DNA from: Adlercreutzia faecimuris
Lineage (GTDB): Bacteria > Actinomycetota > Coriobacteriia > Coriobacteriales > Eggerthellaceae
Assembly (NCBI RefSeq): GCF_022669055.1
Contig: NZ_JAJMLW010000001.1
Coordinates: forward strand, 434,001-498,000
Length of the DNA stretch: 64,000 nucleotides
Direction: 5' to 3'
Every line of letters begins with the position of its first letter. Positions within the stretch are counted from its first letter, which is position 1. Both the position numbers and the translations under genes were made by a program. Below the pieces are notes generated by a model. The model had not been told where the DNA came from and ran no database searches. It saw nothing but the letters and a program-made list of their open reading frames with translations. Of the stretch, positions 1 to 9,128 are shown in pieces.

Positions 1-489
1 GAGGGCATCCCCGTCATGATGCTCACGGCGAAGGGGACGGAATACGACACCGTGGTGGGGCTGGACGCCGGCGCGGACGACTACCTGGCCAAGCCCTTCG
101 GGATGATGGAGCTGGTCTCGCGCGTGAACGCCCTGCTGCGTCGTGCCGAGCGCGAGGCGGCGGCCCCCGCGACGCCGGCGGCGGAGGGGCCCATCGCCCT
201 GGATGCCGAGGCGCATATGGTCACCGCGGGCGGGGTTCCCGTGAGCCTCACCCTTAAGGAGTTCGAGCTGCTGCGCGTGCTCATGGCCAACGAGGGGCGC
301 GTCCTCACCCGCGACCAGCTGCTCGACCAGGTGTGGGACATGGCCTTCGCCGGCGGCACGCGCACGGTGGACGCCCACGTCACCACGCTGCGCCAGAAGC
401 TGGCCGCGGCGTGCCCCGGCGCCGAGGCGCTGGTGGTCACCGTGCGCGGCGTGGGCTACGGCTACCGCCGCGGGGACGACGGGCGATGA
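1..489 (+). CDS. OmpR-family response regulator, C-terminal part (cut by window start)
   Basis: This is the end of a two-component DNA-binding regulator; its start lies before the window. The visible part has the end of the receiver domain, with the conserved Thr in MLTAKG and the Lys in AKPFG that surround the phosphorylation pocket. The phosphorylated Asp is upstream and not visible. A winged-helix DNA-binding domain of the OmpR/PhoB type follows, with LTLKEFELLRVL, a recognition-helix region around TRTVDAHVTTLRQKL and the terminal GVGYGYR wing. Its stop overlaps the start of the kinase gene by 4 bases (ATGA), so the two are translationally coupled and surely form one system. A pst operon lies 2.8 kb downstream, so a PhoP/PhoB-like role is possible, but the sequence does not prove it. 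Confidence 0.93.
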   Translation, partial: EGIPVMMLTAKGTEYDTVVGLDAGADDYLAKPFGMMELVSRVNALLRRAEREAAAPATPAAEGPIALDAEAHMVTAGGVPVSLTLKEFELLRVLMANEGRVLTRDQLLDQVWDMAFAGGTRTVDAHVTTLRQKLAAACPGAEALVVTVRGVGYGYRRGDDGR

Positions 490-2165
490 CCGAGCGCCCC
501 GCACCGTCCGCACCCGCGTCCGCCGCCTCCGAGCTCCGCGCCTCGGGGGACGCCGCCGCGCCGTCTGCGCCGTCTGCGCCCGCCGCGTCCGCCCCGCGTC
601 CCCGCAGCCTGTCGCGGCGCATCTTCGCCAGCGTGCTGGGCTTCACCCTGGCCGTGATGGTCGTGTTCTCGGTGGCCCTCACCTCCATCTACTACGTCAC
701 CTACGAGCAGGACGCCGAGCGCCTGCTCATCGTGCAGGCCCGCGATGCGGCCGCGCGGCTCGATGCCGCGCCCGCCGACGAGCGCGTCGCCGTGCTGGCC
801 GAGCAGTTCTCGGGCCTGGTGCGCTACACCCTGGTCGCGCCCGACGGGGAGGTGCTCTTCGACACGGCGCCCGCCATATCGGGATCGGCCGACAACCACG
901 CCGACCGTCCCGAGGTGCGCGACGCCGCGGCCGCCGGCGAGGCGGCCGTCTCGCGCTACTCCGCCACCCTGAGCAGCGACACGGTCTACGCCGCGGTGCG
1001 CCTGGCCGACGGCGCGGTGCTGCGGCTGGCCGAGACCCGCGAGTCGCTGCTGTCGTTCCTCGGCGGCCTGACCGTGCCGGTGCTCGGTGCCCTGGCGGTG
1101 GCCGTGCTGCTGGTGCTGCTGCTCTCCCGCGCGCTCACCCGCGGCATCCTGCGTCCCTTGGACGACCTGGATGTGGCCAACCCCCTCGCCGCGCCGGTCT
1201 ACGCCGAGATGGCGCCGCTGCTCGAGCGCATCGACTCGCAGCAGCGCCAGCTCCGGCAGCAGAACCGCGCGCTCGCCCGGGCCGAGGGGGCGCGCCGCGA
1301 CTTCTCGGCCAACGTGTCCCACGAGATGAAGACGCCCCTGCAGGTGATCGCCGGCTACGCCGAGCTCATCGAGGGGGGCGTGGCCGACGGCGAGGACGCC
1401 CGGCAGTTCGCCGGCATCATCCACCAGGAGTCCCAGGCTATGCGCGCCCTCATCGACGACGTGCTCACGCTGTCGCGCCTGGACGAGGTGCAGCCCGACG
1501 CGGTGTCGGCCGCGCCTGTGGAGGTACGCTCGGTGGCCGAGCGGGCCGCCCGGCGTCTCGACCACCTGGCGCGCCAGGAGGGCGTGGCGGTAAGCGTGGA
1601 GGGCGATCCGGCGTGGATCATGGGCAGCGAGGCCCTGATGGAGCAGGTCGTCTACAACCTCATCCAGAACGGCATCCGCTACAACGAGCCCGGCGGGTCG
1701 GTGACGGTGGCGGTGGCGACTGAGGCGGCGTCCGCGCCTGCCATCCCCGGCGCGGTTGCCCCCACCTCCGCCTTCGCCTTCGCTCCCGGCACGGCCGCCC
1801 CCGCCCCCGCGGCAGGGGAGGGCGCGCCCGCCGCCCAGGTGGTCATCCGCGTGGCCGACACCGGCCCGGGCGTGCCCGAAGACAAGCGCGAGAAGATCTT
1901 CGAGCGCTTCTACCGCCTGGAGAAGAGCCGCTCGAAGGAGACCGGCGGCACGGGCCTGGGACTCGCCATCGTGAAGCATGGCGTGATGCGCCACGGCGGC
2001 TCCATCGAGGTGGGCGGCCGCGAGGGCGAGGGCGCCGAGTTCATCCTGCGCCTGCCTGCCGCCCTCGCGCCTTCGGGGGCCGCCGCTTCGGCCGCCGCCC
2101 CGCCTGCGCCCGGCAGCTCCGCGCCCGCCGTGCCGCCGGCCGCGGGCCCCATAACGAACCGATGA
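486..2165 (+). CDS. sensor histidine kinase, PhoR-like
   Basis: A membrane sensor kinase of 559 residues, partner of the preceding regulator. The start is the ATG inside the ATGA overlap. A Pro/Ala/Ser-rich cytoplasmic N-terminus leads into TM1 (about residues 47-70), an extracytoplasmic sensor of about 125 residues, TM2 (about 198-215) and a short linker. The HisKA domain has the phospho-acceptor His279 in NVSHEMKTPL. The ATPase domain has the N box (LIQNGIRYNEP), G1 (VADTGPGVPE), the F box (IFERFYR) and G2 (GTGLGLAIVKHG). An Ala/Pro-rich stretch of about 40 residues is inserted in the ATPase domain between the N box and G1, and the C-terminus ends in another Ala/Pro-rich tail. The architecture is that of PhoR/WalK-type kinases. 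The signal sensed is unknown; phosphate is a guess from the nearby pst genes. Confidence 0.92.
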   Translation: MTERPAPSAPASAASELRASGDAAAPSAPSAPAASAPRPRSLSRRIFASVLGFTLAVMVVFSVALTSIYYVTYEQDAERLLIVQARDAAARLDAAPADERVAVLAEQFSGLVRYTLVAPDGEVLFDTAPAISGSADNHADRPEVRDAAAAGEAAVSRYSATLSSDTVYAAVRLADGAVLRLAETRESLLSFLGGLTVPVLGALAVAVLLVLLLSRALTRGILRPLDDLDVANPLAAPVYAEMAPLLERIDSQQRQLRQQNRALARAEGARRDFSANVSHEMKTPLQVIAGYAELIEGGVADGEDARQFAGIIHQESQAMRALIDDVLTLSRLDEVQPDAVSAAPVEVRSVAERAARRLDHLARQEGVAVSVEGDPAWIMGSEALMEQVVYNLIQNGIRYNEPGGSVTVAVATEAASAPAIPGAVAPTSAFAFAPGTAAPAPAAGEGAPAAQVVIRVADTGPGVPEDKREKIFERFYRLEKSRSKETGGTGLGLAIVKHGVMRHGGSIEVGGREGEGAEFILRLPAALAPSGAAASAAAPPAPGSSAPAVPPAAGPITNR

Positions 2166-2204
2166 AGATGCGCGCCGGCGACGGTGCGCGCCGGGCGCTC
2201 CTCC

Positions 2205-2217
2205 TATAATGGGGCCA
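2205..2217 (+). promoter_or_regulatory. -10 box of a probable leaderless transcript for the MscS gene
   Basis: A perfect TATAAT lies at 2205-2210, and the ATG of the next gene starts at 2217, exactly where transcription would start. No Shine-Dalgarno sequence fits this ATG. The simplest reading is a leaderless mRNA, which is common in actinobacteria. No clear -35 box is visible. Confidence 0.5.
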
Positions 2218-3170
2218 TGGAAAAGCTCTACGACATGTTCGACCGGTTCGTCCACTCGGACTGGCTGGCCACCGCGCTCGGGGTCGTCCTCATCCTGGGC
2301 GTCACGGCCGTGCTCTCCCGCGCCGCCATCACCCTCACGCGCAAGATGCTCCGCCGAGGCTCGCTGCTGCCCACCAGCTCCATCTTCGTCAACGTCATCC
2401 GCGTGGGTATCTGGCTCGTGGGCATCAGCTTCATGCTATCCACCTGCTTCAACGTGGACGTGAGCGCCATCGTCACGGGCCTGGGCGTCGTCGGCATCGC
2501 CGTGTCGCTCGGCTTCCAGGACACCATATCCAACCTCATCGGCGGCCTGCAGGTGAGCGTGTCGCGCACCGTCGAGCCGGGCGACAACATCAAGCTGGGC
2601 GTCAGCGGCGTGAGCGGCGTGGTGCGCGACGTGACCTGGCGCTACACCACGGTCGACAACCCCGCCGGCACGCGCATCGTCATCCCCAACTCGCTCATGA
2701 ACACCACGGCCCTCATCAAGCTCGCCGGCCCGGAGAACGTGACCGTCCCCCTCGTGGTCACCGACAGCGAGCAGCGCCTGACCGCGGTCGCCCACCACAT
2801 GGAGGAAGCCGCCGCCAAGGCGCTCAAGCGCGTCGACAAGGTGAAGAAGGGACCGTCGGTGTCGTTCTCGGAGGTGACGGCCCAGGGGTTCAAGGGCTCG
2901 CTCTCCTTCACGCTGGCCGACGTGAGCAAGGTGTCGGCGGCCACCGACGCGGCCATCCGCGCCATCGCCCCCTACTGTCACCCGCATCCCGTCGAGCAGA
3001 TGCTCGGCACCGTCGAGGGCGCGCTGCTCGAGAAACAGGGCCTGCCGAAGGAGAAGGCCGAGGCCACGGTGTCCGCCGACCTCACGGCCACCCAGGTCGT
3101 GCCCACGGCTGACGCGTCTGATCCCGATGTCGCCGCGCCGGCCGCGCCGGCCGATGTTGCCGACAAGTAA
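2217..3170 (+). CDS. small-conductance mechanosensitive channel, MscS family
   Basis: A 317-residue membrane channel that releases solutes under hypo-osmotic stress. Three membrane segments are visible: about residues 14-40, 55-75, and the pore-lining TM3 about 82-110 with the Gly/Ala pattern VTGLGVVGIAVSLGFQDTISNLIGG. The beta domain follows (VEPGDNIKLG, VRDVTWRYTT, IVIPNSLM), then an alpha/beta C-terminal domain. The tail is Ala/Asp-rich. An upstream in-frame GTG at 2184 also opens the frame, but the ATG at 2217 fits the channel start and the -10 box just before it. It sits 51 bases after the kinase gene and may be independent of it. The family call is firm; which paralogue is unknown. Confidence 0.9.
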   Translation: MEKLYDMFDRFVHSDWLATALGVVLILGVTAVLSRAAITLTRKMLRRGSLLPTSSIFVNVIRVGIWLVGISFMLSTCFNVDVSAIVTGLGVVGIAVSLGFQDTISNLIGGLQVSVSRTVEPGDNIKLGVSGVSGVVRDVTWRYTTVDNPAGTRIVIPNSLMNTTALIKLAGPENVTVPLVVTDSEQRLTAVAHHMEEAAAKALKRVDKVKKGPSVSFSEVTAQGFKGSLSFTLADVSKVSAATDAAIRAIAPYCHPHPVEQMLGTVEGALLEKQGLPKEKAEATVSADLTATQVVPTADASDPDVAAPAAPADVADK

Positions 3171-3300
3171 GCTCATCTTTACGCAGATTTGACCGACGCA
3201 GAACGCGTCCTTTACCCATCCTCCCCATCATGGTTAGTGCTTTGAGCGGCATGAGACCAAGCGAGACGTCGAAGGCGCCTCGGAGAGAAAGGGAGGAAAA

Positions 3301-4218
3301 ATGAAGAAGTTGACGAGGGCGCTTGCCCTCTGCGTTGTCCTGGCTCTGGGGGCCTGCGCGCTGACGGGCTGCGCCCCGTCGCCCGGCTCATCGGGAGGCG
3401 CCTCGGCGGGAGGGGCGTCCTCAGACGCATCTGCCCCTTCCGGCCCCATATCCGTCTACGCGCGTGAGGACGGCTCTGGTACGCGCGGGGCCTTCATCGA
3501 GCTGTTCGGCATCGAGCAGAAGGACGCCTCGGGCCAGAAGGTCGACCTGACCATCCCGTCCGCGGCCATTACCAACTCCACCGCCGTCATGATGACCTCG
3601 GTTGCCAGCGACCCCAACGCCATCGGCTACCTGTCCCTCGGCTCGCTCGACGACACGGTGAGGGCCCTCTCCATCGACGGCGCCGAGCCCACGGCGGCCA
3701 ACGTGAAGAGCGGGGTCTATCAGATCGCCCGTCCCTTCAATATCGTGATGACCGAGGACGCCTCCCCGGCGGCCCGGGATCTCGCTGCCTTCATCATGAG
3801 CGCCGAGGGCCAGGCCATCGTCGAGGAGAACGGCTATGTGAGCGTGGCGGAGGGAGACTCCTATGTGCCGTCCGGGATGGAGGGCAAGGTCGTCGTGGCC
3901 GGCTCGTCCTCGGTGACTCCGGTGATGGAGAAGCTGGCCGAGGCGTACCGGGCGGCCAACCCCGGCATGACGGTGGAGGTGCAGCAATCCGACTCGACGA
4001 CCGGCGTGAACATGGCGCTTGAGGGAACGTGTGACATCGGCATGGCCTCACGCGACCTGAAGGACGAGGAGAAGGGCGCGGGCGCCCAGGCCACGGTCAT
4101 CGCCCAGGACGGCATCGCAGTCATCGTTTCGCAGGAGTCCTCGATTGACGACCTCTCGACCGAGCAGGTCATGGAGATATACACCGGCGCCATCACCAAC
4201 TGGGACGATCTGATCTAG
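3301..4218 (+). CDS. pstS: phosphate ABC transporter substrate-binding lipoprotein, PstS-like, apparently circularly permuted
   Basis: A 305-residue lipoprotein that should bind phosphate outside the membrane and hand it to PstCA. The signal peptide ends in the lipobox LTGC (Cys24), followed by a Ser/Gly/Ala linker. The two halves are in the reverse of the usual order. Right after the linker comes the segment normally found in the second half (ISVYAREDGSGTRGAF with Arg55 and Ser59-Gly60-Thr61, then PNAIGYLSLGSL, RPFNIV, EGQAIVEENGYV). The usual N-terminal half then begins at about residue 196 (VVVAGSSSVTPVMEKLAEAY, CDIGMASRDL, IAQDGIAVIV). The protein ends at IYTGAITNWDDLI, exactly where an ordinary PstS would run into the VYAREDGSGTR segment. 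Both sets of phosphate-contact motifs are present. It starts the pst operon with a good GGGAGG ribosome site 5 bases before the ATG. Confidence 0.88.
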   Translation: MKKLTRALALCVVLALGACALTGCAPSPGSSGGASAGGASSDASAPSGPISVYAREDGSGTRGAFIELFGIEQKDASGQKVDLTIPSAAITNSTAVMMTSVASDPNAIGYLSLGSLDDTVRALSIDGAEPTAANVKSGVYQIARPFNIVMTEDASPAARDLAAFIMSAEGQAIVEENGYVSVAEGDSYVPSGMEGKVVVAGSSSVTPVMEKLAEAYRAANPGMTVEVQQSDSTTGVNMALEGTCDIGMASRDLKDEEKGAGAQATVIAQDGIAVIVSQESSIDDLSTEQVMEIYTGAITNWDDLI

Positions 4219-4234: not shown

Positions 4235-5092
4235 GTGAACTCATCGGCTCTGCGTGAGGGGACGGCCCGGGTGCTCTTCAGCGCGGCCGCGGCCGTCTCC
4301 GTGGTGGCGGTGGTCCTGATCTGCCTGTTCCTGTTCGTCAACGGCGTGCCGGCCATGGCGGAGATCGGGGTGCCGGAGTTCCTGCTGGGCGCCATCTGGC
4401 GCCCAGCCAACGGCCTGTACGGCATCTTCCCCATGATCGTGGGGAGCATCTACGTCACGGTAGGGGCGGTCATCGTGGGCGTGCCCGCGGGGCTGCTGTG
4501 CGCGATATTCCTCTCGCGTTTCGCCGGCGCCCGCATGGCGATGCTACTGGCCCCGGGCGTCGAGCTGCTGGCGGGCATTCCCTCGGTGGTCTACGGCTTC
4601 TTCGGCCTCATCATCATGGTGCCGATCATTCGGGGCCTCGCGCCCGGGCACGGCCCGTCGCTGCTGGTGGCGGCGCTGCTGCTGGGCATCATGATCCTGC
4701 CCACCGTCATCACCGTGGCGCGCAACGCGCTTGACGCCGTGCCGCGGCGCTACTACGAGGGAGCGCTTGCCCTCGGTGCCGACCATGAGCGCGCCGTGTT
4801 CTGCGTGGTAGTGCCGGCTGCGGCCTCGGGCCTGCTGGCTGCGGTGGTGCTGGCGGTGGGACGGGCCATCGGCGAGACGATGGCGGTCATCATGGTGGCG
4901 GGTAACCAGCCCGTCATCCCCGGCTCGCTCCTCGATGGCGTGCGCACCCTGACGGCCAACATCGCGCTCGAGATGGGGTATGCGGCCGGACTCCACCGCG
5001 AGGCGCTCGTTGCCACGGGCGTGGTGCTGTTCGTGTTGATTCTGCTCATCACGCTGTTCCTGAACGCAGCGCGGAAGAGGGGAGGCAGGTGA
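4235..5092 (+). CDS. pstC: phosphate ABC transporter permease PstC
   Basis: A 285-residue inner-membrane permease, one half of the phosphate channel. About six membrane segments are visible. The cytoplasmic coupling region has the PstC-type pattern ELLAGIPSVVYGFFGL followed by LPTVITVARNALDAVP and YYEGALALGADHERAV (the EAA loop that contacts PstB), then GRAIGETMAVIMVAGN. The start is GTG at 4235, 16 bases after pstS, with a GAGGGGGG ribosome site. Its stop overlaps the pstA ATG by one base. The partner of PstA and PstB is certain from order and motif; the length is normal for the family. Confidence 0.95.
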   Translation: MNSSALREGTARVLFSAAAAVSVVAVVLICLFLFVNGVPAMAEIGVPEFLLGAIWRPANGLYGIFPMIVGSIYVTVGAVIVGVPAGLLCAIFLSRFAGARMAMLLAPGVELLAGIPSVVYGFFGLIIMVPIIRGLAPGHGPSLLVAALLLGIMILPTVITVARNALDAVPRRYYEGALALGADHERAVFCVVVPAAASGLLAAVVLAVGRAIGETMAVIMVAGNQPVIPGSLLDGVRTLTANIALEMGYAAGLHREALVATGVVLFVLILLITLFLNAARKRGGR

Positions 5093-5937
5093 TGAGGCGG
5101 CTCTCGCGCGTGTTGCGCTGGCTCGTGTACGCCGGCGCGGCGCTCACGGCGGCGGTGCTGCTGGCGATAACGGGGTTCGTGCTGATCAACGGGATTCCCC
5201 ATCTGACGCCGAGCTTGTTCGAGTGGACGTATACCTCCGACAATGTCTCGCTTATGCCCGCGCTGGTCGGCACCCTGCTGATGGCCGCCCTCGCGCTGCT
5301 GATGGCGGTGCCCGTGGGGGTGGGAGCGGCTATCTACCTGGTGGAATACGCCCCGCGGGGCAGCCGCTTCGTGCGGGCCGTGCGGATGACCTCCGAGACG
5401 CTGCAGGGCATCCCCTCCATAATCTACGGCCTGTTCGGGATGCTGCTCTTCGTGACGGCGCTCGGCTGGGGGCTGTCGCTGCTGGCAGGCGCGTGCACCT
5501 TGGCCGTCATGGTGCTGCCCGTGGTCGTGCGCACCACGGAGGAGGCGCTGATGGCGGTGCCCGACGGCTACCGGGAGGGCGGCTTCGCGCTGGGAGCGGG
5601 GCGCCTGCGCGTGGTGGCGCGCTGCGCGCTGCCCTCGGCAGCGCCGGGCATCCTGGGTGGCGTGGTGCTGGCGCTTGGGCGCTGCGTCGGCGAGGTGGCG
5701 GCGCTGCTGTTTACGGCGGGCACGGTGGCGCAGGTGCCCGACCTGCTGGGGGCGGGGCCGGCCGGCCTCTTCGACTCGTGCCGCACCCTCGCGGTGCACT
5801 TGTACGTGCTGGCCTCGGAGGGCTTGCACATCGACGAGGCCTATGCGACGGCGGTGGTGCTGCTCGCGGTAGTGATGGTGCTTAACGGTGTCGCCGCCTT
5901 GGCGACGCGGATGATGGAGGTGAGGGATCGTGGCTGA
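5092..5937 (+). CDS. pstA: phosphate ABC transporter permease PstA
   Basis: A 281-residue membrane permease that pairs with PstC. Six membrane segments are predicted. The coupling loop has [45 protein letters not shown] and [15 protein letters not shown], which match the PstA pattern. A GTG lies at 5089 just before, but the ATG at 5092 has GGAGG 7 bases upstream and overlaps the pstC stop by one base, so it is preferred. The 3' end overlaps pstB by 8 bases. There is no phoU at the end of the operon, which is a small departure from the common pstSCAB-phoU order. Confidence 0.95.
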
Positions 5938-6763
5938 GATGGCCAGTGTGGCGGAGCGCGTGACGGAGGAGGGGAAAGCACCGGCGATGGCGGCATCGAC
6001 TGTCGATCTTGCCCCTGCGAAGATGGCCGTGGCGCACCTCGGCCTGCGCTACGGTGACTTCTCCGCCCTGCGCGATGTGAACCTGGTGTTTCCCGAGCGG
6101 CAGGTGACAGCGCTCATCGGGCCGTCGGGCTGCGGCAAGTCGACGCTCCTGCGGTGCCTGAACCGCATGAACGACCTGGTGGCGGGCTGTCGCGTGACGG
6201 GATCGGTGCTGCTTGACGGACAGGACGCGTACCGGTTCGTCGACGTCAACGATCTGCGGAGGCGCGTGGGCATGGTGTTCCAGCAGCCCAACCCCTTCCC
6301 CATGAGCATCTACGACAACGTGGCCTTCGGCCCGCGCACCCACGGCGTCAAGCGTCGAGCCGACCTGGACGAGATAGTCGAGCGCTCGCTGCGCGATGCC
6401 GCTATCTGGGATGAGCTGAAGGATCGCCTGCGCAAGAACGCGCTGGGGCTGTCCGGTGGCCAACAGCAGCGCCTGTGCATCGCCCGCGCGCTGGCCGTGC
6501 GCCCCGAGGTGCTGCTGATGGACGAGTCGACGAGCGCGCTCGACCCCATCTCGACGGCCAAGATCGAGGAGCTGGTGCGACAGCTGCGGGAGCGGTATAC
6601 GGTGGTGATGGTGACCCACAACATGCTCCAGGCCCTGCGCGTGTCCGACCGGACGGCGTTCTTCCTGATGGGGGAGGTTGTGGAGGCGGGCCCCACCGAC
6701 GACGTGTTCACCCATCCGCGCGATGGGCGCACGGCCGACTACGTGGCCGGACGCTTCGGGTAG
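5930..6763 (+). CDS. pstB: phosphate ABC transporter ATP-binding protein PstB
   Basis: A 277-residue cytoplasmic ATPase that powers phosphate import. Every ABC motif is readable: Walker [11 protein letters not shown]-loop [12 protein letters not shown] (the PNPFP is typical of PstB), signature [16 protein letters not shown], Walker [14 protein letters not shown], and the switch His in VTHNM. The first 25 or so residues are an extra Ala/Glu-rich N-terminus compared with the shortest PstB proteins. GTG at 5930 is preceded by GGAGGTGAGGG, and the gene overlaps pstA by 8 bases. It is the last gene of the operon and runs towards the 6S RNA terminator hairpin. Confidence 0.96.
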
Positions 6764-7202: not shown

Positions 7203-9128
7203 CTACTCGCTGGCGGGCTTGGCGGTGTTGTCGGTTCCGGTGTTGGAGCCGCTGCTGGTTCCGCCGCCGTCGCCCCCGGTGTTTCCGCCGGAGTTGCCGC
7301 CGTTGTTGCCGTTGTTGCCCCCGCTGGGGTTGTTGTTCGGGTTGTCGTCGCCCTCGTTGCCGCCGGGGGTGCTCGGCTTGGGGTCGGGCTCAGGCTCCGG
7401 CTCGGGCTTGGGGCCCTGGCTGATGGTGATAGTCACCGTGGAGCCCTTGTCCTCCTTGCCCGTGGGATCCTGGCTCATGACCGTGCCCTCGGGGTAGTTG
7501 CTGTGGCCGCCCTGCACGACGTTCACCTTGAAGCCGGCGCTCTCCAGCTCGCTCGTGGCCGAGGACTTGCTCTTGCCCACGACGTCGGGCACGGGCACCG
7601 TCTCGATGCCGAGCGACAGCACGTAGGTCACCGTGGAGCCCTTGGCCACCTTGGTGCCGGCCGACGGGTTCTGGCTGACGATGCGGTCCTTGTCCACCTT
7701 GTCGGAGTACTCGGCGGGACCGGCCGTCAGCTTCAGGCCGTACTCGTCGGCGTACTTCTGCGCGTCGGCGGCGGTCATCTCGTAGAAGTTGGGCACGGGC
7801 ACCTGCTCGGTGCCCTGCGATACGAAGACGTTCACCCTCGTGCCTTCGGGCTTCTTCGTTCCGGCCTCGGGGTCCTGCTTGACGATGGTGCCCTCGGGCG
7901 CCTTCTCGTCGTAGACGTAGTTGGTGGTGCCTATCTCGAAGCCGTCGTTCTCCAGCGTGGAGGTGGCGGCCTCGATGGTCATGCCGTTGAGGTTGGGCAC
8001 CGCCTTCTCGTCGGCCCCGCCGTTGCCCAGCAGGGCGAAGGCGATGGCGCCCACGATGACGAGCGCGACGATGGCCGCCACGGCGATGACGATGTTGCGC
8101 TTGGACTTGGGCGGCTCCTCGACGCGGTAGCCCTTGCCGGAGAGCGCGGGGTTGGTGACGGGGCTCACGGCGCCGACGCCGGGCATCGCCTGGGTGGCGT
8201 CCACGGGGGCCATCGGCGGCACCGCGGGCGGCACCGTGCCGATGACGCGGGTGCTGGCGCTGGTGAAATCGGACGCGCCGCCCAGGTTGACAGGGCGGCC
8301 GGCCAGGTAGTCGTTGAGGGCCAGGCGCATGTCGTTGGCCGTGGCGAAGCGGTCGGCCGGCGACTTGGCCATGGCGCACAGGATGATGTCCTCGAGCGCC
8401 GGGTCGATGTTGGGGTTGATGGCGCTGGGGGGCAGGGGCTCGTCCTGCACCTGCATCATGGCGACGCTGACGGCATCCGGCCCGTCGAAGGGCAGCTTGC
8501 CGGTGGTGGCCTCGTACATGACCACGCCGAGCGAGTAGATGTCGCTGGCGGCCGTGAGTTCCTTGCCCTGGGCCTGCTCCGGCGAGATGTAGTGGGCGGT
8601 GCCCAGCACCGCGGAGGTCTTCTGCTTGACGGAGTTCTTCGCCCGCGCGATGCCGAAGTCCATCACCTTCACGTTGCCGTCGGGCTGGACCATGATGTTC
8701 TGCGGCTTGATGTCGCGGTGGATGATGTCCTGGTTGTGGGCCACGGTGAGGGCCTGGCACACCTGGGAGCCGATCTCGGCCACCTTGCGCTGGTTGATGG
8801 CGCCACGCTGGTTGATGGCGGTCTTGAGGTCGGATCCGCGGACGAACTCCATGACGATGAAGTAGGTGCCCTCGTCCTGGCCCCAGTCGTAGACGTTGAC
8901 GATGTAGGGGCTCTGGAGGTTGGCCGCCGCCGCGGCTTCCTGGCGGAAGCGGCGCGTGAACTCGGCGTCGGCGGCGTACTGGGGGAGCATCACCTTGACG
9001 GCCACGACGCGGCCCAGGACGTTGTCCTGCGCCTGGTAGACCTCGGCCATGCCGCCGATGCCGATGCGATCCCGCACCTCATAGCGGCCGCTGAGGGTGC
9101 GCCCCGTCATTGAATCCTGTCCGGTCAC
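7203..9128 (-). CDS. pknB: serine/threonine protein kinase with PASTA domains, PknB type
   Basis: A 641-residue membrane kinase that senses peptidoglycan fragments or lipid II and controls wall growth. The cytoplasmic kinase domain (about residues 14-275) has the glycine loop GIGGMAEVY, Lys45 in VAVKVM, catalytic Asp139 in HRDIKPQN, DFG at 157-159 and a Thr-rich activation loop with GTAHYISPEQ. One membrane segment (about 345-368) follows, then three extracellular PASTA repeats (about 376-440, 441-510, 511-575) and a Pro/Glu then Gly/Asn-rich tail to the end. GTG at 9128 has AAGGAG 8 bases before it and is preferred over the ATG 18 bases downstream. It is the last gene of the fhaA-fhaB-phosphatase-RodA/PBP-pknB block, but a 167-base gap before it may hold its own promoter. 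The low-complexity tail is unusually long. Confidence 0.96.
   Translation of the reverse strand: MTGQDSMTGRTLSGRYEVRDRIGIGGMAEVYQAQDNVLGRVVAVKVMLPQYAADAEFTRRFRQEAAAAANLQSPYIVNVYDWGQDEGTYFIVMEFVRGSDLKTAINQRGAINQRKVAEIGSQVCQALTVAHNQDIIHRDIKPQNIMVQPDGNVKVMDFGIARAKNSVKQKTSAVLGTAHYISPEQAQGKELTAASDIYSLGVVMYEATTGKLPFDGPDAVSVAMMQVQDEPLPPSAINPNIDPALEDIILCAMAKSPADRFATANDMRLALNDYLAGRPVNLGGASDFTSASTRVIGTVPPAVPPMAPVDATQAMPGVGAVSPVTNPALSGKGYRVEEPPKSKRNIVIAVAAIVALVIVGAIAFALLGNGGADEKAVPNLNGMTIEAATSTLENDGFEIGTTNYVYDEKAPEGTIVKQDPEAGTKKPEGTRVNVFVSQGTEQVPVPNFYEMTAADAQKYADEYGLKLTAGPAEYSDKVDKDRIVSQNPSAGTKVAKGSTVTYVLSLGIETVPVPDVVGKSKSSATSELESAGFKVNVVQGGHSNYPEGTVMSQDPTGKEDKGSTVTITISQGPKPEPEPEPDPKPSTPGGNEGDDNPNNNPSGGNNGNNGGNSGGNTGGDGGGTSSGSNTGTDNTAKPASE

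Follow-up and report, generated by a model that had tools for sequence, protein, structure and literature searches.

At the head of a pst operon in Adlercreutzia faecimuris lies a gene whose product carries the two halves of the phosphate-binding protein PstS in swapped order, which raises the question of whether it encodes a genuine circular permutant, where such a protein came from and whether it still serves phosphate uptake. The window analyzed here is a 64,000-nucleotide stretch of contig NZ_JAJMLW010000001.1, and its relevant features are collected in Table 1; a search of the source genome returned one match to the permuted PstS. The reading we favor, at a probability of roughly 0.9, is that of a PstS-family phosphate-binding lipoprotein that goes back to one ancient permutation event and probably serves, like any PstS, as receptor for the PstCAB importer whose genes follow.

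Table 1. Coordinates of the permuted pstS gene, its segments and its neighbors in the window
Feature	Position	Strand	Evidence or remarks
PhoB-like response regulator, cut by window start	1..489	+	Pfam Response_reg, Trans_reg_C
PhoR-like histidine kinase	486..2165	+	Pfam HisKA, HATPase_c
PHO-box-like direct repeats, 11-bp period	3178..3216	+	TTTACG, TTGACC, AGAACG, TTTACC
Permuted pstS gene, 305-aa lipoprotein	3301..4218	+	Intact ORF; profile matches, phmmer, de-permutation, model
Signal peptide with lipobox LTGC (Cys24)	3301..3372	+	Direct reading
PstS C-terminal half, aa 47–183	3439..3849	+	RED-GSGTR phosphate loop, NAIGY, RPFNIV, ENGYV
Linker of ~11 aa, ancestral C-terminus to ancestral N-terminus	3850..3882	+	
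PstS N-terminal half, aa 195–303	3883..4209	+	AGSSSVTP, QQSDSTTG, DIGMASRDL, DGIAVIV; end TGAITNWDD
pstC permease	4235..5092	+	TIGR02138, 262.5 bits, above cut-off
pstA permease	5089..5937	+	TIGR00974, 255.5 bits, above cut-off
pstB ATPase	5930..6763	+	TIGR00972, 394.7 bits, above cut-off

The product of the open reading frame at 3301–4218 is a circular permutation of a small PstS, as the first-pass annotation had proposed from the order of its motifs. The PstS profile TIGR02136 matches it in two stretches whose order is swapped (E 3e-57), and phmmer aligns residues 196–304 of the query with residues 5–113 of chain 4q8r, and residues 47–182 with residues 117–245. The normal-order PstS 4gd5 is likewise matched in two swapped stretches, whereas 4h1x is matched in a single collinear stretch (query 44–303 to chain 5–263, E 1e-59). 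When the halves are restored in silico, the pattern reverses: 4q8r is matched in one stretch (4–247) at 181 bits, compared with 98 + 71 before, 4gd5, 1twy and 4exl each align in one stretch as well, and the match to 4h1x breaks into two. E-values as low as 1e-60 rule out chance, and since the halves do not follow the normal N-to-C order, the protein is a permuted variant of the PstS family rather than an ordinary member. Its last residues, TGAITNWDDLI, form the joint that usually lies in mid-protein, so the chain does stop where the motif reading had placed its end. Truncation, duplication and assembly artefact were ruled out as explanations by the sequence models, the reciprocal de-permutation searches and the predicted structure (pLDDT 94). 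The permuted PstS scores 194 bits against TIGR02136 as encoded and 204.5 when de-permuted, in both cases just below the curated cut-off of 206.6, so that this profile by itself would not assign the PstS name; PF12849, at 129 bits, is above its cut-off. An ordinary alignment catches one half only, and PstS annotation, structure comparison and tree work can therefore be misled.

An AlphaFold2 model, built from the window sequence together with database sequences, reached a mean pLDDT of 94 and a pTM of 0.84. It superposes end to end on 4h1x (Z 35.7, rmsd 1.2 Å over 256 residues, TM 0.88/0.96); normal-order PstS structures superpose on it by one half only, with shifted numbering, as in the matches of residues 19–159 to 1twy 136–276 and of residues 168–282 to 9l8j 2–117. 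After 4h1x, the next-best full-length Foldseek match is OpuAC (2B4M), which at 10% identity and 6.5 Å rmsd is a relative at the level of the superfamily and was set aside as a close one. As modeled, a single chain is a complete two-lobed PstS-like fold, which makes the domain-swapped arrangement entertained in the first-pass annotation unnecessary.

In normal PstS, lobe I is built from both chain ends; in the E. coli protein it comprises approximately residues 1–75 and 246–321, with lobe II formed by residues 76–245. Mapping onto E. coli PstS, whose sequence was verified against 1IXH, places its residue 75 at residue 268 of the window protein and its residue 250 at residue 140. By this mapping, lobe I of the permuted protein would be one continuous stretch, at about residues 140–268, and lobe II would be split between about 50–139 and 269–305. 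With lobe I continuous and lobe II split, the lipid anchor, carried by lobe I in the normal order, should sit on lobe II after the permutation.

The swapped order is widespread among gut and Gram-positive bacteria. A full-length permuted match was found in 46 of 298 sampled Coriobacteriia genomes, all of them Coriobacteriales and mostly Eggerthellaceae; the remaining Coriobacteriia have mostly half-length matches only, and inspection of 24 such matches showed the normal order in each. Among 299 sampled Bacillota genomes, approximately 10 (10 or 11, counting the center genome) gave a strong match. The best 80 public contigs comprise 79 with a permuted gene and one with a permuted gene broken by a stop codon, from Streptococcus, Granulicatella, Desemzia, Peptoniphilus, Ruminococcus, Blautia, Lachnospiraceae, Negativicutes, Eggerthellaceae and others, and altogether the swapped order was found in 153 permuted ORFs, some retrieved repeatedly, from many independent genomes. 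It is not the order of all PstS relatives (4q8r and 4gd5, for example, have the normal order), and both forms at times share a genome, as in Desemzia, where a permuted pstSCAB is followed by a normal pstS. Nothing was found in favor of the view that misassembly or a recombination artefact in the source genome produced the order. This view is refuted by the occurrence of the order in so many independent genomes and has a negligible probability: the order recurs with a near-constant linker length in the 46 Coriobacteriia genomes and in the best 80 database loci, including the stop-broken one, and a solved structure, 4H1X, has it too. The broken gene, from Streptococcus ictaluri (L073:4896–5774), has an in-frame stop just past GSTSVSP, and its phosphate loop GSGTR is changed to GSGTI; it is probably a decaying gene, the alternative being a sequencing error. 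In another relative, a second, partial match (G036:C1:2164000–2164248) covers query residues 6–85 only, at 58% identity, and is possibly a truncated extra copy.

The same evidence bears on novelty, and the suggestion that a permuted PstS was an unknown form is not supported. The protein in 4H1X (released in 2012), S. pneumoniae SP_2084 (PstS 2), comes from a different phylum and has the same half order, the same end-to-end fold and 41–42% identity to the window protein; together with the wide occurrence in Bacillota and Coriobacteriales, this structure reduces the novelty of the permuted PstS. In the open-access library searched, no paper was found that names 4H1X or describes a permuted PstS, and a description may exist in subscription papers, which lie mostly outside that body of text. 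The window protein thus falls within a lineage that already has a solved structure but seemingly no description. Normal-order small PstS proteins (TIGR02136; 4Q8R, 4GD5 and 4EXL) resemble it in each half, in the phosphate-contact positions and in the pstSCAB setting, but have the opposite half order, with a split lobe I and a continuous lobe II. Permutation has precedents among other binding proteins. Tp0684 (MglB-2) of Treponema pallidum, which with its relatives, mostly from treponemes and Gram-positives, was proposed as ‘Type Ic / Cluster Bc’, is also a circularly permuted, lipid-anchored binding protein of an ABC importer and still binds its ligand (PMC4990184); it is, however, a Type I sugar-binding (glucose) protein of an unrelated subfamily and represents a separate permutation. 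Using CPSARST, glycine-betaine-binding proteins were identified as circular permutants of molybdate-binding proteins and CysB (PMC2395249), a permutation inside the type II binding-protein fold, as with the permuted PstS, but one that links distant families with other ligands through structure only.

The boundaries of the permutation are uniform. The new N-terminus lies upstream of the strand running into REDGSGTR and the new C-terminus directly past TGxITNW; in most permuted ORFs a linker of ~11–14 residues (~13 is typical for the relatives) bridges the ancestral termini, and the chain ends ~3 residues past the N-half. The rearrangement would have fused the ends of an ancestral PstS through a short linker and opened new termini in the loop between the halves, after TGxITNW and ahead of the REDGSGTR strand. 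The first-pass annotation put forward tandem duplication and trimming as a possible origin; the scanned loci were searched for ORFs containing three or four half-domains, and no N-C-N-C, C-N-C or N-C-N intermediate was found. Two loci, from Anaerosphaera (L099:3881–5753) and a Eubacterium MAG (L149:4836–7020), have a tandem pair of permuted pstS genes upstream of pstCAB; these pairs resemble later duplications rather than intermediates.

A tree of 91 de-permuted sequences (57 permuted and 34 normal, the 4H1X sequence not among them) groups all permuted PstS in one clade with a support of 100/98, and a single state change is found in 99% of the bootstrap trees, although the bootstrap had not fully settled. 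The clade joins the window protein with members from Streptococcus, Granulicatella and other Bacillota. In trees of the separate halves, the N-halves and the C-halves each form one permuted clade (SH-aLRT 92 and 94), and the PstC partners of permuted PstS likewise form a single clade (SH-aLRT 100). Single clades for both the receptor and its partner PstC indicate that the operon stems from a single event, with receptor and permease inherited together. The patchy occurrence across Bacillota and Coriobacteriales could speak for several independent origins of the permuted order, yet this is very improbable against one clade for the whole protein, for each half and for the partner PstC, and against identical breakpoints and a similar linker length throughout. 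Within the permuted clade, descended from one event, Bacillota are basal, with Coriobacteriales nested among Clostridia, a placement suggesting that Coriobacteriales acquired the permuted operon by transfer from Bacillota. Coriobacteriales occupy three spots in the tree, as two or more separate transfers into the order might produce, but an AU test does not reject their forming one clade, as a single entry would (p 0.189). Two MAG contigs labeled Avidesulfovibrio (L146) and Lactobacillus (L122) carry permuted PstS sequences that are also nested among Clostridia, reflecting either misbinned contigs or recent transfer.

A tentative and rather doubtful extension of this history is that permutation of the receptor founded, once, a PstSCAB lineage that then co-evolved: an anchor on the other lobe may have altered docking or opening over PstC–PstA, and permuted and normal receptors would not be interchangeable. 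Permuted and normal PstS proteins, with ~40–50% identity per half and sometimes encoded in the same genome, offer a clean test of the role of chain order, and if the shift of the anchor between lobes does affect docking, such a pair would reveal the effect directly.

As to function, the phosphate-contact residues of E. coli PstS are known, and R135, S139, G140, T141 and S38 among them correspond to R55, S59, G60, T61 and S232 of the window protein, which are invariant among the permuted proteins compared. The positions of T10 and F11 are taken by S203 and S204, and that of D56 by a serine, as in normal-order small PstS. Both ligand motifs are therefore kept, in that the phosphate-contact positions of the family are present and invariant in the permuted set. 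The genomic setting agrees with the earlier description of an intact operon headed by the permuted gene: pstC, pstA and pstB all score above their curated NCBIfam cut-offs, the four genes are separated by small gaps or overlaps, and pstC is preceded by a permuted pstS in nearly all loci compared. At 85–123 bases upstream of the pstS start codon, a TTKACS-like unit occurs four times at an exact spacing of 11 bp. When the upstream region was shuffled 200 times, no shuffle attained the score of this array; arrays at 10/200 or better occur upstream of permuted pstS in 75 of 125 relatives, and a pattern derived from the site itself matches nowhere else in the window and in none of 100 shuffles. The repeats point to putative control of the permuted pst operon by PhoB. 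The pneumococcal Pho box ahead of pstS1, TTTACACAATCTTTACA, is likewise an 11-bp repeat (PMC4913102).

In three Streptococcus loci with an intact permuted gene and both regulators visible (L071, L072 and L074), phoB-phoR lies directly upstream of the permuted operon. SP_2084, the protein of 4H1X, is by its locus tags presumably the receptor of the pneumococcal Pst1 system linked to pnpRS. Because this pnpRS-adjacent position matches the arrangement in the three loci, Pst1 was taken as a permuted-receptor system, and the comparison is in keeping with a permuted receptor in S. pneumoniae Pst1. The closest functional evidence comes from S. pneumoniae, in which the pnpRS-linked Pst1 is induced >100-fold under low phosphate and its loss lowers initial uptake in low phosphate by half (PMC4913102).

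By residue conservation and gene context, then, the permuted PstS would bind phosphate and support its transport, the lipoprotein handing the ion to the adjoining PstCAB as an ordinary receptor does; the earlier expectation that it is probably functional is borne out as a prediction, by binding positions, operon and PHO-box-like repeats. It could instead be a PstS-like receptor for another oxyanion, or a phosphate sensor rather than a deliverer, and the coexistence of permuted and normal PstS in some relatives’ genomes leaves room for such a division of labor. Either role is unlikely, however, given binding positions that resemble their counterparts in normal small PstS, an operon shared with pstCAB, PHO-box-like control upstream and a phosphate-regulated pneumococcal relative (PMC4913102). 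Around the operon, a gene for an MscS-type mechanosensitive channel (2184–3170) sits between the phoR-like kinase gene and pstS, and downstream of pstB, on the opposite strand, lies a gene for a serine/threonine kinase with three PASTA domains (7203–9128, minus strand).
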